The notes beneath the pieces were generated by a model. It was not told the DNA's origin. It did no database searches and was given only the letters and a program-made list of their open reading frames with translations. A program made the translations under genes and the position numbers. From Streptococcus iniae (GTDB lineage: Bacteria > Bacillota > Bacilli > Lactobacillales > Streptococcaceae): 64,000 bases of DNA. Shown piece after piece: positions 57,116-64,000 of the stretch. Location of the stretch: positions 772,001 through 836,000 of the forward strand of contig NZ_CP132230.1 of assembly GCF_030732225.1 (NCBI RefSeq), written 5' to 3'. Numbering within the stretch: position 1 is the first letter of the stretch; each line of letters begins with the position of its first letter.

Positions 57116-57171
57116 GTTTTTGAAGAGTAGAATGGAAGTATAAAATATAATATGAATGAAATATGGAAAAT

Positions 57172-57260
57172 AAAAAAACACCGAATCGGTGTTCACTTTT
57201 TCAAGTTGATTACGGACAAGCCTTATTTTAACTTGCTGTGTTGTTTTGAATGGTTCCAAC
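57172..57260 (-). ncRNA. tracrRNA, short form
   Basis: The minus strand reads GGAACCATTC, AAAACAACACAGCAAGTT, AAAATAAGGCTTGTCCGT, AATCAACTTGAAAAAGTG, then ACACCGATTCGGTG and a T-run. This matches S. pyogenes tracrRNA: anti-repeat (57225-57258), nexus (AAGGCTTGTCCG), an AACTTGAAAAAGT hairpin and the final terminator hairpin. TTGACA (57295-57290) and TATTAT (57272-57267), 17 bp apart, predict a start near 57260. The RNA would be about 89 nt, the length known for S. pyogenes. It pairs with crRNA repeats and is bound by Cas9. Confidence 0.95.
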
Positions 57261-57266
57261 AAAATA

Positions 57267-57295
57267 ATAATATAATATCTCTATTAAAATGTCAA
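57267..57295 (-). promoter_or_regulatory. Promoter of the short tracrRNA
   Basis: TTGACA (57295-57290), a 17-bp spacer and TATTAT (57272-57267) form a near-consensus promoter. Confidence 0.8.
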
Positions 57296-57343
57296 GGAAA
57301 AACAAAACAAAATAGCTCTAAAACCATAATACAATTAGCTTAT

Positions 57344-57352
57344 ATTTTAGCA
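57344..57352 (-). promoter_or_regulatory. Promoter of the long tracrRNA
   Basis: TGCTAAAAT is an extended -10 with a weak -35-like TGGATT 17 bp upstream. The predicted start coincides with the first base of the 13-nt guide match. Confidence 0.65.
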
Positions 57353-57373
57353 GAAATCTTAAAATAAATCCAT

Positions 57374-57401
57374 TTGAATATTTTAAAAACAATGTTATAA
57401 T
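57374..57401 (+). promoter_or_regulatory. cas operon promoter (Pcas)
   Basis: TTGAAT (57374-57379), 16 bp, then TGT-TATAAT (hexamer 57396-57401, extended -10). It is divergent from the tracrRNA promoters and reads toward cas9. Its product would now enter the IS element about 100 bp downstream. Confidence 0.75.
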
Positions 57402-57416
57402 AATTGTATTATGAGG
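57401..57416 (+). promoter_or_regulatory. Cas9 self-target site in Pcas: 13-nt match plus AGG PAM
   Basis: TAATTGTATTATG (57401-57413) is identical to the 5' end of the long tracrRNA and is followed by AGG (57414-57416), an NGG PAM. The match begins at the last base of the -10 box and covers the start site. Matching stops at the 14th base. A match this short should allow Cas9 to bind without cutting. The DNA copy encoding the guide is followed by GTT, not NGG, so it would not be targeted. Confidence 0.8.
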
Positions 57417-57498
57417 AATCGAGATTTAAAATTGAGAAAATAAATTTATTCAAGAGTATATTAGAAATAATAAAGCTACTTATTGACATTTTTAAAGA

Positions 57499-57506
57499 GA
57501 TTTTTA
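57499..57506 (+). repeat. Target-site duplication, left copy
   Basis: GATTTTTA directly precedes the left end of the insertion sequence and is repeated exactly at its right end. Confidence 0.88.
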
Positions 57507-58820
57507 GGTAGTGTAAAATATCTTGTGTAAACACAAAAAAGGAATAAATCCTGTATAGTAGAGTTACGACACTTCACTAGAAAGAGATTTATTCCCATGA
57601 CTCAGTTTACCACAGAATTACTTAACTTCCTAGCGCAAAAACAAGATATTGATGAATTCTTTCGATCCTCTTTAGAAATAGCTATGAATGATCTCTTGCA
57701 GGTTGAACTATCAGCTTTCCTTGGATATGAGCCATATAAAAAAGAAGGTTACAATACAGGTAATAGCCGTAATGGGACCTACTCTCGACAGTTTGAAACG
57801 AAGTATGGCTTAGTCAATTTAATCATTCCAAGAGATCGAAACGGCGAGTTTTCACCAGTTTTATTACCATCTTATGCTAGACGAGATGACCACTTGGAAG
57901 AGATGGTGATTAAACTCTATCAAACTGGCGTTACGACACGCGAAATCAGTGACATTATTGAGCGCATGTATGGTCACCACTACAGTCCAGCAACGGTGTC
58001 AAATATCACAAAAGTGACTCAAGAAAGTGTCACTGCCTTTCATGAGCGTTCCTTTCAAACTAACTACTCAGTCTTGTATCTAGACGGAACTTACTTACCC
58101 TTGCGACGAGGTACGGTCAGTAAAGAATGTATTCACATTGCACTTGGTATCACGCCTGAAGGGTATAAATCAGTTCTTGGCTATGAGATTGCCCCTAATG
58201 AAAATAATGTCTCTTGGTCAGATCTTCTTAAGAGGCTACAAAATCAAGGACTTAAGCAAGTTTCTCTAGTTGTTACAGACGGGCTTAACGGTGTGGATCA
58301 AATCATCCAACAAGCCTATCCAATGGCTAAACAGCAACGGTGTCTGGTTCACATTGGTCGCAATATCTCCAGTAAGGTCAAACGAGTAGATAGGGCACCT
58401 ATTCTAAATCAGTTCAAGCAGATTTATCGTGCCACAAATTTACAGGAGGCTATTAAATTATTGGAACAATTTGTTTCTGAGTGGAAACCTCGTTACAAAA
58501 AGGTTATGACATCACTTGAAACAACTGAAAATCTCCTAACTTTCTATCAATTTCCACATCACATTTGGTCTAGTATTTACTCTACAAACTTGATTGAATC
58601 ACTCAATAAAGAAATCAAGCGACAAAGCAAGAAGAGGGTGGTTTTTCCAAATGAAGAAGCCTTAGAACGATGCCTTGTAAGTATTTTCGAAGACTATAAC
58701 ATTAAGTTCGGAGCTCGTATTCATAAAGGATTCGGAGTATGTTTTGACACACTTGATAGCTTATTTGACTAATATTCAAAAACTCTACTCTTGTGTTTAC
58801 ACAAAATTATTGACAGTATC
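57507..58820 (+). mobile_element. IS256-family insertion sequence (IS1191-like), 1314 bp
   Basis: The element carries one transposase gene between imperfect inverted repeats of about 28-30 bp (left from 57507, right ending 58820). They share the block TTGTGTAAACACAA (57523-57536; its complement at 58791-58804) with about 23 of 28 outer positions matching. Perfect 8-bp duplications flank it, the size expected for this family. Length resembles IS1191 of S. thermophilus. It lies between Pcas and cas9 in the same orientation as cas9. Intact repeats, gene and duplication suggest a recent insertion. Confidence 0.93.
57597..58772 (+). CDS. IS256-family transposase
   Basis: This 391-residue Mutator-type (MULE) DDE transposase has the catalytic residues visible in VLYLDGTYLPLRRG (Asp), LVVTDGLNGV (Asp) and STNLIESLNKEIKRQSKK (Glu). 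The N-terminal region ELSAFLGYEPYKKEGYNTGNSR is typical. The frame is complete. It is full length, so the element may still be active. Confidence 0.96.
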   Translation: MTQFTTELLNFLAQKQDIDEFFRSSLEIAMNDLLQVELSAFLGYEPYKKEGYNTGNSRNGTYSRQFETKYGLVNLIIPRDRNGEFSPVLLPSYARRDDHLEEMVIKLYQTGVTTREISDIIERMYGHHYSPATVSNITKVTQESVTAFHERSFQTNYSVLYLDGTYLPLRRGTVSKECIHIALGITPEGYKSVLGYEIAPNENNVSWSDLLKRLQNQGLKQVSLVVTDGLNGVDQIIQQAYPMAKQQRCLVHIGRNISSKVKRVDRAPILNQFKQIYRATNLQEAIKLLEQFVSEWKPRYKKVMTSLETTENLLTFYQFPHHIWSSIYSTNLIESLNKEIKRQSKKRVVFPNEEALERCLVSIFEDYNIKFGARIHKGFGVCFDTLDSLFD

Positions 58821-58837
58821 GATTTTTATTTTATGAA
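58810..58837 (+). promoter_or_regulatory. Possible hybrid promoter at the right IS end
   Basis: TTGACA (58810-58815), inside the IS right end, points outward. TATGAA (58832-58837) in the flanking DNA lies 16 bp away. Insertion could thus have created a promoter for cas9. The -10 is weak, so this is a prediction only. Confidence 0.45.
58821..58828 (+). repeat. Target-site duplication, right copy
   Basis: GATTTTTA immediately follows the IS right end, identical to the left copy. Confidence 0.88.
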
Positions 58838-58867
58838 ATTATTAATTAATTGATATACATAAATAAT

Positions 58868-58884
58868 GCACTTTAAAAAAGTGC
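58868..58884 (+). other. Hairpin upstream of the cas9 ribosome-binding site
   Basis: GCACTTT-AAA-AAAGTGC forms a perfect 7-bp stem with a three-base loop about 7 bases before AAGGAG. It could modulate translation or mRNA stability. Confidence 0.5.
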
Positions 58885-58904
58885 TGGCAAAAAGGAGAAA
58901 ATAC

Positions 58905-61900
58905 ATGCGTAAACCTTATTCAATTGGACTTGATATTGGTACAAATAGTGTAGGATGGGCCGTTATAACAGATGATTACAAGGTTCCTTCAAAAAAAATG
59001 AGAATTCAAGGCACTACAGATAGAACTTCAATAAAGAAAAATTTGATTGGTGCATTATTATTTGATAATGGTGAAACTGCGGAAGCCACTCGTTTAAAGA
59101 GAACAACAAGAAGAAGGTATACAAGACGAAAATATCGTATCAAGGAGTTACAAAAGATATTTTCAAGTGAAATGAACGAGCTAGACATTGCATTTTTTCC
59201 ACGTTTATCAGAATCATTTTTGGTTTCAGATGATAAAGAGTTTGAAAATCATCCTATTTTTGGGAATTTGAAAGATGAAATTACTTATCATAATGACTAT
59301 CCAACTATTTATCATCTAAGGCAGACATTAGCCGATAGTGATCAAAAAGCTGATCTTAGATTAATCTATTTAGCTTTAGCCCATATTATTAAATTTAGAG
59401 GTCACTTTTTGATTGAAGGAAATTTAGATTCAGAAAATACAGACGTTCATGTGTTGTTTTTAAATTTAGTAAATATCTATAATAATTTATTTGAGGAGGA
59501 TATTGTTGAAACAGCTTCTATTGATGCAGAAAAAATACTAACATCTAAAACAAGCAAATCAAGAAGACTAGAAAATCTAATTGCGGAAATTCCTAATCAA
59601 AAAAGAAATATGCTTTTTGGAAATCTTGTCTCGCTTGCGTTAGGGTTAACACCAAATTTTAAAACTAATTTTGAACTATTAGAAGATGCTAAACTTCAAA
59701 TTTCTAAGGACAGTTATGAAGAAGACTTGGACAATCTTTTAGCTCAAATTGGCGACCAATATGCCGACTTATTCATCGCTGCTAAAAAGTTATCTGATGC
59801 AATTTTACTTTCAGATATTATAACTGTAAAGGGGGCAAGTACAAAAGCTCCTTTATCAGCATCAATGGTACAACGTTATGAAGAACATCAGCAGGATTTG
59901 GCTCTCTTGAAAAATTTAGTTAAGAAACAAATTCCAGAAAAATATAAGGAAATCTTTGATAATAAAGAGAAAAATGGCTACGCTGGTTATATTGATGGTA
60001 AAACAAGTCAGGAAGAGTTCTATAAGTATATTAAGCCTATCTTGTTAAAATTAGATGGTACAGAAAAACTAATTTCTAAACTTGAGCGGGAAGACTTCTT
60101 AAGAAAACAAAGAACATTTGATAATGGTTCAATTCCACATCAAATTCATCTGAATGAACTTAAGGCAATCATTAGACGCCAAGAAAAATTCTACCCTTTC
60201 TTAAAAGAAAATCAGAAAAAAATAGAGAAATTATTCACTTTTAAAATTCCATACTATGTCGGCCCGTTAGCAAATGGTCAGAGTTCCTTTGCTTGGTTAA
60301 AACGTCAATCAAATGAATCAATTACTCCTTGGAATTTTGAAGAAGTAGTGGATCAAGAGGCTTCAGCTAGAGCATTTATTGAAAGAATGACCAACTTTGA
60401 TACCTATCTGCCTGAAGAAAAAGTTCTTCCTAAACATAGTCCCCTTTATGAAATGTTTATGGTATACAATGAGTTGACTAAGGTTAAATATCAGACGGAA
60501 GGCATGAAAAGACCTGTGTTTTTATCATCTGAAGATAAAGAAGAAATTGTTAATTTACTTTTTAAAAAAGAAAGGAAAGTAACTGTAAAACAATTGAAAG
60601 AGGAATACTTTAGTAAAATGAAATGTTTCCATACAGTAACAATTTTGGGAGTTGAAGATCGATTTAATGCTTCGTTAGGAACTTATCATGACCTATTAAA
60701 GATTTTTAAAGACAAAGCATTTTTGGATGATGAAGCAAATCAGGATATACTAGAGGAAATTGTATGGACTTTAACACTTTTTGAAGATCAAGCAATGATT
60801 GAAAGACGTTTAGTGAAATATGCTGATGTTTTTGAAAAATCTGTTCTTAAAAAATTGAAAAAACGTCATTATACTGGATGGGGACGCTTATCTCAAAAGT
60901 TAATAAATGGTATCAAAGATAAACAAACTGGTAAAACTATACTTGGATTTTTAAAAGACGATGGAGTTGCAAACCGAAACTTCATGCAATTAATTAATGA
61001 TTCTTCACTAGATTTTGCAAAGATAATAAAGAATGAGCAAGAAAAGACAATTAAGAACGAAAGTCTTGAAGAAACAATTGCAAATTTAGCAGGAAGTCCT
61101 GCAATAAAAAAGGGTATTTTACAAAGTATAAAAATTGTTGATGAGATTGTTAAAATTATGGGACAAAATCCAGATAATATCGTTATCGAGATGGCTCGAG
61201 AAAATCAATCAACAATGCAAGGGATTAAAAATTCTCGTCAACGATTACGAAAACTTGAAGAAGTTCATAAAAATACAGGAAGTAAGATTTTAAAGGAATA
61301 CAATGTAAGCAATACACAACTCCAAAGTGATAGGTTATATCTATATCTTTTACAAGATGGTAAAGATATGTATACTGGGAAAGAATTAGATTATGACAAT
61401 TTAAGTCAATATGATATTGATCATATTATTCCGCAAAGCTTTATAAAAGACAATTCAATTGATAATACCGTCTTAACCACTCAAGCTTCTAATAGAGGTA
61501 AGTCAGATAATGTACCAAATATAGAAACAGTTAATAAAATGAAGTCGTTTTGGTATAAACAATTGAAAAGTGGTGCAATTTCACAACGAAAATTTGATCA
61601 TTTAACTAAAGCAGAACGTGGTGCCTTAAGTGATTTTGATAAAGCAGGATTCATCAAACGTCAACTTGTTGAAACTAGACAAATTACAAAACATGTTGCT
61701 CAAATATTAGATAGTCGGTTTAACAGCAATCTAACTGAGGATAGCAAAAGCAATCGCAATGTTAAAATTATTACTTTGAAATCTAAAATGGTATCAGATT
61801 TTCGTAAAGATTTTGGATTTTACAAGCTTCGTGAAGTTAATGATTATCATCATGCTCAGGATGCCTACCTCAATGCAGTTGTAGGAACAGCACTATTGAA

Positions 61901-63010
61901 AAAGTATCCTAAATTAGAAGCGGAGTTTGTTTATGGTGACTATAAACATTATGATTTAGCCAAATTGATGATTCAACCGGACTCCTCTTTAGGGAAAGCT
62001 ACAACAAGAATGTTTTTCTACTCCAATCTCATGAATTTCTTTAAAAAAGAAATTAAGCTTGCAGATGATACCATATTTACGAGACCACAAATCGAAGTTA
62101 ATACTGAAACTGGGGAGATAGTGTGGGATAAAGTAAAAGATATGCAAACTATTCGGAAAGTGATGTCATATCCTCAGGTTAATATTGTAATGAAAACAGA
62201 AGTTCAAACAGGTGGGTTTTCTAAAGAATCTATTTGGCCAAAAGGTGATTCTGATAAATTGATTGCTCGTAAAAAGTCATGGGATCCTAAAAAATATGGT
62301 GGTTTTGATAGCCCAATAATTGCTTATTCTGTATTAGTAGTTGCTAAAATTGCAAAAGGAAAAACTCAAAAACTAAAAACTATCAAAGAACTTGTGGGAA
62401 TAAAAATAATGGAACAAGATGAATTTGAAAAAGATCCTATTGCCTTTCTTGAAAAGAAAGGTTATCAGGATATTCAAACTAGTTCTATTATTAAACTGCC
62501 AAAATATAGTTTATTTGAATTAGAAAATGGTAGGAAACGGCTTCTAGCTAGTGCAAAGGAATTGCAAAAAGGTAATGAACTGGCCTTACCTAATAAATAT
62601 GTTAAATTCTTATATCTTGCATCTCACTATACAAAATTTACTGGAAAAGAGGAAGATAGAGAGAAAAAGAGAAGCTATGTTGAAAGTCATTTGTATTATT
62701 TTGATGAAATAATGCAAATTATTGTGGAATACTCTAATCGTTATATTTTGGCAGATAGTAATCTAATAAAAATACAAAATCTTTATAAAGAAAAAGACAA
62801 CTTTAGTATAGAAGAACAAGCAATTAATATGTTAAACCTTTTCACATTTACCGATTTGGGTGCACCGTCAGCTTTTAAATTTTTTAATGGTGATATTGAT
62901 AGGAAACGTTATTCATCAACAAATGAAATTATAAATAGTACATTAATCTATCAATCACCAACCGGACTTTATGAAACACGTATTGATTTAAGTAAACTTG
63001 GAGGGAAATA

Positions 63011-63011
<1 letters not shown>
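58905..63011 (+). CDS. cas9: CRISPR-associated endonuclease Cas9, type II-A
   Basis: The 1368-residue length equals S. pyogenes Cas9. The RuvC-I motif [10 protein letters not shown] places the catalytic Asp at 10; the Arg-rich bridge helix follows ([16 protein letters not shown]). The HNH motif [11 protein letters not shown] puts the catalytic His exactly at codon 840, and RuvC-III is [14 protein letters not shown]. Near the C-terminus DRKRYSST keeps Arg1333 and Arg1335, which read an NGG PAM. ATG 58905 after AAGGAG is chosen over an in-frame ATG at 58866 that lies in the hairpin. The frame is intact. It overlaps cas1 by one base. Expression may be altered by the upstream IS. Confidence 0.98.

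Positions 63012-64000
<989 letters not shown>

Follow-up and report, generated by a model that had tools for sequence, protein, structure and literature searches.

Does the type II-A CRISPR-Cas9 locus of Streptococcus iniae encode a long tracrRNA whose own first bases guide Cas9 to the promoter facing the cas genes, and would such a guide still govern cas9 in this strain? Autorepression of the S. pyogenes type II-A CRISPR-Cas9 system through the long tracrRNA, tracr-L, and the promoter Pcas was reportedly the subject of Workman et al. 2021 in Cell. The available parts of three publications describe this S. pyogenes loop (PMC11417352, PMC8616872, PMC8730458), and together with those of a fourth they mention that S. 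mutans has a divergent tracr-L with its target, that the loop is conserved in S. agalactiae and that the promoter has been lost naturally in the latter species (PMC11417352, PMC8616872, PMC8730458, PMC12216829). In the same portions, the sources disagree on the length of the S. pyogenes match, which is given as 11 nt (PMC8616872) or as 9 bp (PMC8730458), and so short a match is said to be bound and to appear uncut (PMC8616872). The regulatory principle is already published, and the locus described here adds another case, with insertion sequences. The DNA analyzed is a stretch of 64,000 nucleotides, referred to below as the window, and coordinates are those of the window unless stated otherwise (Table 1).

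The first-pass annotation, made from the letters alone, had reported that 13 bases at 57337-57325 on the minus strand are identical to those at 57401-57413 on the plus strand, where AGG follows; this proved exact on rereading. Read directly, the minus-strand copy is TAATTGTATTATG, abuts GTTTTAGAGC and runs straight into GTTTTAGAGCTATTTTGTTTTG (minus 57324-57303), while its 13-bp twin TAATTGTATTATG on the plus strand is followed by AGG at 57414-57416. The guide thus matches the predicted Pcas over 13 nt with an NGG PAM (AGG), and the first base of the target is the last base of the TATAAT (57396-57401) whose companion TTGAAT begins at 57374. It should be noted that a promoter scan of the region yields 9 promoter-like sites versus 7.3 in shuffles (sd 3.1), i.e. 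no enrichment, so that the Pcas call is based on position and on comparison with other loci.

Table 1. Positions of the tracr-L, cas and insertion-sequence features discussed in the text
Feature	Position	Strand	Basis or remark
tracrRNA body: anti-repeat, nexus, terminator-like hairpin 57194-57176	57171..57261	-	Rfam RF02348
tracr-S predicted promoter, TTGACA-17-TATTAT	57267..57295	-	11/12 consensus positions
CRISPR-repeat-like segment GTTTTAGAGCTATTTTGTTTTG, predicted partner of the tracrRNA anti-repeat	57303..57324	-	sequence, array repeat GTTTTAGAGCTGTGTTATTTTGAATGGTCCCAAAAC
tracr-L guide, 13 nt, TAATTGTATTATG	57325..57337	-	sequence
tracr-L predicted promoter, extended -10 TGCTAAAAT; predicted transcript start ~57337	57344..57352	-	sequence
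Pcas, predicted: TTGAAT, 16-nt spacer, TATAAT preceded by TG	57374..57401	+	consensus match only
Target of tracr-L guide; overlaps -10 end and expected start site	57401..57413	+	sequence
PAM AGG	57414..57416	+	sequence; NGG 20/22, NAG 2/22 loci
Upstream part of cas leader, 90 nt, ending in 8-bp target duplication GATTTTTA (57499-57506)	57417..57506	+	sequence
IS256-family insertion sequence, 1314 bp	57507..58820	+	terminal inverted repeats 57509-57536, 58791-58818
IS256-family transposase, oriented as cas9	57597..58772	+	NF033543, 374.7 bits
Second GATTTTTA copy (58821-58828), then remaining 76-nt leader to cas9 start	58821..58904	+	sequence
cas9, 1368 aa (58905-63008; stop codon to 63011)	58905..63011	+	TIGR01865, 839.5 bits
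cas1	63011..63877	+	cas2, split csn2 and array follow beyond the window (L107)

Since the region is A+T-rich, a fortuitous match was considered. Among 20,000 dinucleotide shuffles of 57338-57850, the 3′ 10-mer of the guide occurs in 50 and the entire 13-mer, on either strand, in 3, whereas the 10-mer followed by NGG occurs in none (0/20,000). These counts, along with the recurrence of the pair across the genus (see below), lead us to reject a chance match as exceedingly improbable. Elsewhere in the genome, the sole other exact site with 11 guide nt and NGG lies at C1:177811-177824 (L108), upstream of a small membrane-protein-like reading frame; the match there is 12 nt by eye with a TGG PAM, and it may be due to chance.

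Downstream of the guide, the tracrRNA body is recognized by Rfam RF02348 (minus 57171-57261; 102.6 bits vs. a gathering score of 70) and is encoded near cas9 (58905). Upstream of it, the predicted extended -10 of tracr-L (57344-57352) sits where 21 of the 22 comparable loci of the genus conserve one. The repeat-like segment lies directly after the guide in sequence (GTTTTAGAGCTA); it agrees with the repeat-start template used at 12/12 positions and with its own array repeat (GTTTTAGAGCTGTGTTATTTTG...) at 11 of the first 12 bases, and its pairing is weakly supported. The repeat/anti-repeat duplex of the window is predicted at -11.9 kcal/mol, with 12% of shuffles equally stable. Over all loci, no more than 5% of shuffles reach the stability of the duplex in 9/22 loci, and the duplex of the S. 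pyogenes-like locus L014 is weaker still at -8.2 kcal/mol, so that the shuffle test cannot tell good members from bad. The first-pass annotation had proposed folding the long tracrRNA in search of an sgRNA-like structure. When the whole 167-nt RNA is folded freely, its minimum-energy structure has the guide paired with the nexus region and lacks the canonical lower stem; the canonical single-guide fold is not the minimum-energy structure. Folding is weak evidence because the free fold of the long RNA lacks that structure.

A small RNA made divergently beside cas might also be supposed to work by antisense pairing with the cas messenger. However, the guide is of the same sense as that messenger, being plus-strand sequence, and thus cannot pair with it, but only with the template DNA strand. 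An antisense role was rejected on this ground, its probability being negligible.

Over its residues 1-1367, the Cas9 encoded in the window aligns with Cas9 chains of known structure that are 1368-1384 aa long (alignment displayed to about residue 970), the best of which are presumably S. pyogenes Cas9. It carries D10, H840, R1333 and R1335, which we take to be the catalytic and PAM residues of the S. pyogenes enzyme. Both arginines that had been said to be kept for NGG recognition, R1333 and R1335, are present, and by these two residues the protein is of the NGG type. The type II-A set of cas9, cas1, cas2, csn2 and array is found at the locus, with csn2 split by an insertion sequence (IS). The array has 10 repeats, the last of them decayed, and 9 spacers; the literature search found no paper on its repeat. 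Two spacers resemble phage sequences, namely: L107 3331-3363, with Streptococcus phage Javan64 (90.9% over 33 nt, E 0.02), and L107 3796-3826, with Lactococcus phage P162 (96.8% over 31 nt, E 4e-4). There is also a weak spacer match to prophage Javan271 of S. iniae SF1 (92.9% over 28 nt, E 0.2).

We surveyed 284 genomes of the genus, one per species, with the Rfam tracrRNA model, a first pass having covered 197 genomes. The model matches 118 of the 284 genomes at E 0.001 or better, 93 of them above the family cut-off, and gives 120 matches in total, all of which were counted, including 16 without the TTAAAAT-type core. A guide-target pair was scored where at least 10 nt ending exactly before GTTTT recur as reverse complement within 450 nt upstream; a PAM was not required. 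Such pairs are found at 22 of the 120 matches, with lengths of 10-15 nt in all 22 loci (15 nt in L026), and the other 98 have none under this rule of at least 10 nt within 450 nt upstream. Directly after the recurring copy comes NGG in 20/22 loci and NAG in 2/22, against an NGG background of 4.0%; a binomial probability of this result overstates independence, given the kinship among the 22 loci. When 73 other pentamers of similar frequency were used as a control, a mean of 0.37 loci and a maximum of 5 were obtained, with NGG after 1 of 27 matches. The two NAG targets carry TAG (L010) and AAG (L099), and NAG is described in the available part of PMC11417352 as a weaker PAM of S. pyogenes Cas9.

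In 21/22 loci, the match begins no more than 20 nt after an extended -10 motif, TGnTAnnnT, as opposed to 5.3% at background positions in the same regions, and the distance between the two has a median of 8 nt (6-9 nt in 19/21). Since the extended -10 lies just upstream in these 21 of 22 loci, the matched stretch begins about at the expected transcript start.

Among the individual pairs, that of the S. pyogenes-like L014 is TATTAAGTATT, 11 nt long with a GGG PAM, in agreement with what is in print for S. pyogenes. L138 carries TGTTATGTAGT, and L056 carries GTTATATCTTA; the latter is the nearest of the 26 rows in our Cas9 tree (the first 450 aa of Cas9 are 75% identical), which comprises 21 of the 22 positive loci, no cas9 being found in L085, and five exceptions. 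Within the clade of L079, L090, L149 and L151, ATTTGTATTTA and ATTTATATTTA are each present in both arms, and the sisters L139/L140 differ by a 1-nt insertion, an extra T, that is again present in both arms. When each guide was compared with the other 21 upstream regions, the foreign pairings are below 10 nt in 444/462 cases, own-target matches being at least 10 nt by selection, and 16 of the 18 foreign pairings of at least 10 nt involve loci that share the same guide core. In the sequences compared, guides differ among species and change jointly with their own targets. The joint change of guide and target claimed earlier is therefore seen across the genus, including between relatives as close as L139 and L140.

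These data bear on the reading of the 13-nt inverted repeat as the operator of an ordinary DNA-binding regulator. Regulators often bind inverted repeats, and the one found here spans a promoter-like site. On the other hand, one arm ends at GTTTT, by the search rule, and the free arm ends at NGG in 20/22 loci and at NAG in 2/22; the arms change together between species; and the gap between them, 63 nt at this locus and 59-113 nt among the 22, is loose for a single operator. As an operator leaves the fixed GTTTT and NGG registers unexplained, we rejected this reading, which we regard as very unlikely.

Some loci depart from the pattern. L063, L142 and L093 have the extended -10, the guide and the repeat-like segment, and in the DNA examined there is no target followed by NGG or NAG when up to 2 mismatches are allowed in 12 nt. 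Near-miss targets with a single mismatch are found in L130, where it falls on position 8 from the PAM, and in L088, where it falls on position 10. In L088, a long open frame of 310 aa, which we take to be transposase-like, lies between tracr-L and Pcas, with the target about 1.2 kb from the tracrRNA. In L077, L153 and L160, an element resembling the start of a repeat lies upstream, with neither extended -10 nor target, and these elements may be plain repeats. A guide-target pair can thus drift or be lost, as indicated by the missing targets of L063, L142 and L093 and the mismatches of L130 and L088. Independent variation of guide and target, which the first-pass annotation had named as something that would refute its reading, does occur through such loss or mismatch, yet loci with the complete tracr-L anatomy show it only as an exception.

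The Pcas-like site faces cas9, and a 1314-bp IS256-family element, overlooked in the earlier reading, separates the two. The element has the transposase, inverted repeats, 8-bp duplication and multiple copies of its family: the genome contains 27 matches to it, of which 22 span 1314-1316 bp, and the 8-bp target duplication is present at 16 of 20 copies examined. At the DNA level, the copy at 57507-58820 is about 74% identical to plasmid-borne copies that are annotated as IS905. With the insertion, 1488 nt (57417-58904) separate the PAM from cas9, versus a range of 25-270 nt over 13 other positive loci in which this distance was measured; minus the IS and one duplication, it would be 166 nt. 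When compared with the leaders of relatives, the cas9-side half of the leader (plus 40 nt of coding sequence) scores above 100 shuffles in L056 and L010, but not in L138 or L014, and the upstream half does so in none of L056, L138, L014 and L010. Within the IS, the Rfam antisense RNA Spy392987 is found on the minus strand at 57536-57598 (97.5 bits), over the transposase start codon, and this overlap suggests that the IS is controlled by an antisense RNA.

A second copy of the IS splits csn2 beyond the window (IS at L107 1620-2933, with an 8-bp duplication). The two csn2 pieces, L107 1208-1618 and 2935-3189 (genome C1 ~836208-838189), both match PF09711, and spacer acquisition may be impaired by the split.

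With the IS in place, the guide-target pair could be intact but irrelevant to cas9, which would have been uncoupled by the insertion and would now be silent or driven by a promoter of the IS or a distal one. The 1314-bp insertion in the leader and the distance it creates speak for such uncoupling, as do the breakage of csn2 by the same IS and the case of GBS strains that lost P1cas and are served by a distal promoter, as reported in the accessible text of PMC12216829. In addition, TTGACA near the right IS end (58810-58815) lies 16 nt ahead of TATGAA in the native leader (58832-58837), forming a possible weak hybrid promoter at the IS/leader junction. However, the -10 of this candidate is weak and the promoter scan does not list it; moreover, the scan of the plus strand of the IS and leader shows no terminator-like site, so read-through from Pcas into cas9 is possible. 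We consider uncoupling a serious prospect with somewhat less than an even chance of being right; it is compatible with our preferred reading, which concerns Pcas.

That preferred reading, a tracr-L guide-target design directed against the cas-facing promoter, is to our judgment highly probable from the sequence evidence; this estimate applies to the design and not to control of cas9 in this strain. On the sequence side, there are the fixed registers, an NGG-type Cas9 and a design that is conserved with changing bases in related streptococci. From these we infer a transcript, its loading into Cas9, binding and repression, as follows. tracr-L would load Cas9, and its first 13 nt would direct the complex to 57401-57413 beside the AGG. 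Cas9 would bind this target without cutting it, and initiation at Pcas would be blocked. In this strain, transcription from Pcas would enter the transposase first and reach cas9 only by read-through. Pcas itself should remain subject to the loop, but over cas9 this control is probably weaker than before or is shared with other promoters. The earlier reading of the locus as Cas9 autoregulation therefore stands in part: the sgRNA-like tracr-L with a guide against the predicted cas-facing promoter, the NGG PAM and the NGG-type Cas9 are upheld, whereas control of cas9 in this strain is in doubt because the 1314-bp IS lies between Pcas and cas9.

The locus resembles the S. pyogenes tracr-L system, as far as the available portions of the publications describe it, in having a predicted long tracrRNA with a repeat-like segment, a guide to Pcas, an NGG PAM and a SpyCas9-like Cas9, and in a short match that is expected to bind without cutting. 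It differs in its bases and in match length, which is 13 nt here versus 11 (9 in PMC8730458), and in the IS between Pcas and cas9. A longer match with other bases than in S. pyogenes had been claimed earlier and is borne out by the 11 nt of the S. pyogenes-like L014. In L014, the target starts 8 nt past the -10, whereas here it starts on the last -10 base; the repeat-like segment of L014 has 10/12 repeat-start positions, and the one here is nearer (12/12 of the template, 11/12 of its own repeat). In S. agalactiae, according to the accessible text of PMC12216829, tracr-L likewise acts on P1cas, one of two promoters (P1cas/P2cas), and natural lineages have lost P1cas and rely on the distal promoter; here, in contrast, promoter and target are intact and the insertion is downstream of both. 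Insertion sequences are known to damage CRISPR-cas loci naturally by entering cas genes (PMC10359306, available part), whereas here one copy is in the non-coding leader between Pcas and cas9 and another inside csn2. In the case of the F. novicida scaRNA, as covered in the available sections of PMC8730458, Cas9 also uses a short-match guide from outside the array and represses chromosomal genes, but with a separate small RNA plus tracrRNA, and the targets are lipoprotein genes rather than cas. Among the matches listed for tracr-L/Pcas with insertion sequences and for S. iniae CRISPR or tracrRNA, the present arrangement was not found in titles or abstract openings, which is no proof of absence.

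A further idea is that the IS has captured an autoregulated promoter, such that tracr-L and Cas9 restrain transcription of the transposase and cas9 is freed from the feedback or only loosely tied to it. We regard this as unlikely, though worth stating: if true, the capture would amount to a way around Cas9 autorepression that arose in nature, with an immune repressor restraining a resident transposon.

Taken together, the published S. pyogenes control circuit is extended here to another species with different letters, at the strength of a sequence-based prediction. The PAM and the start-site rule emerge unprompted from the comparison, which is strong sequence evidence that targeting by Cas9 keeps the pairs together, and the insertion into the leader provides a natural experiment on the separation of an autorepressed promoter from cas9.
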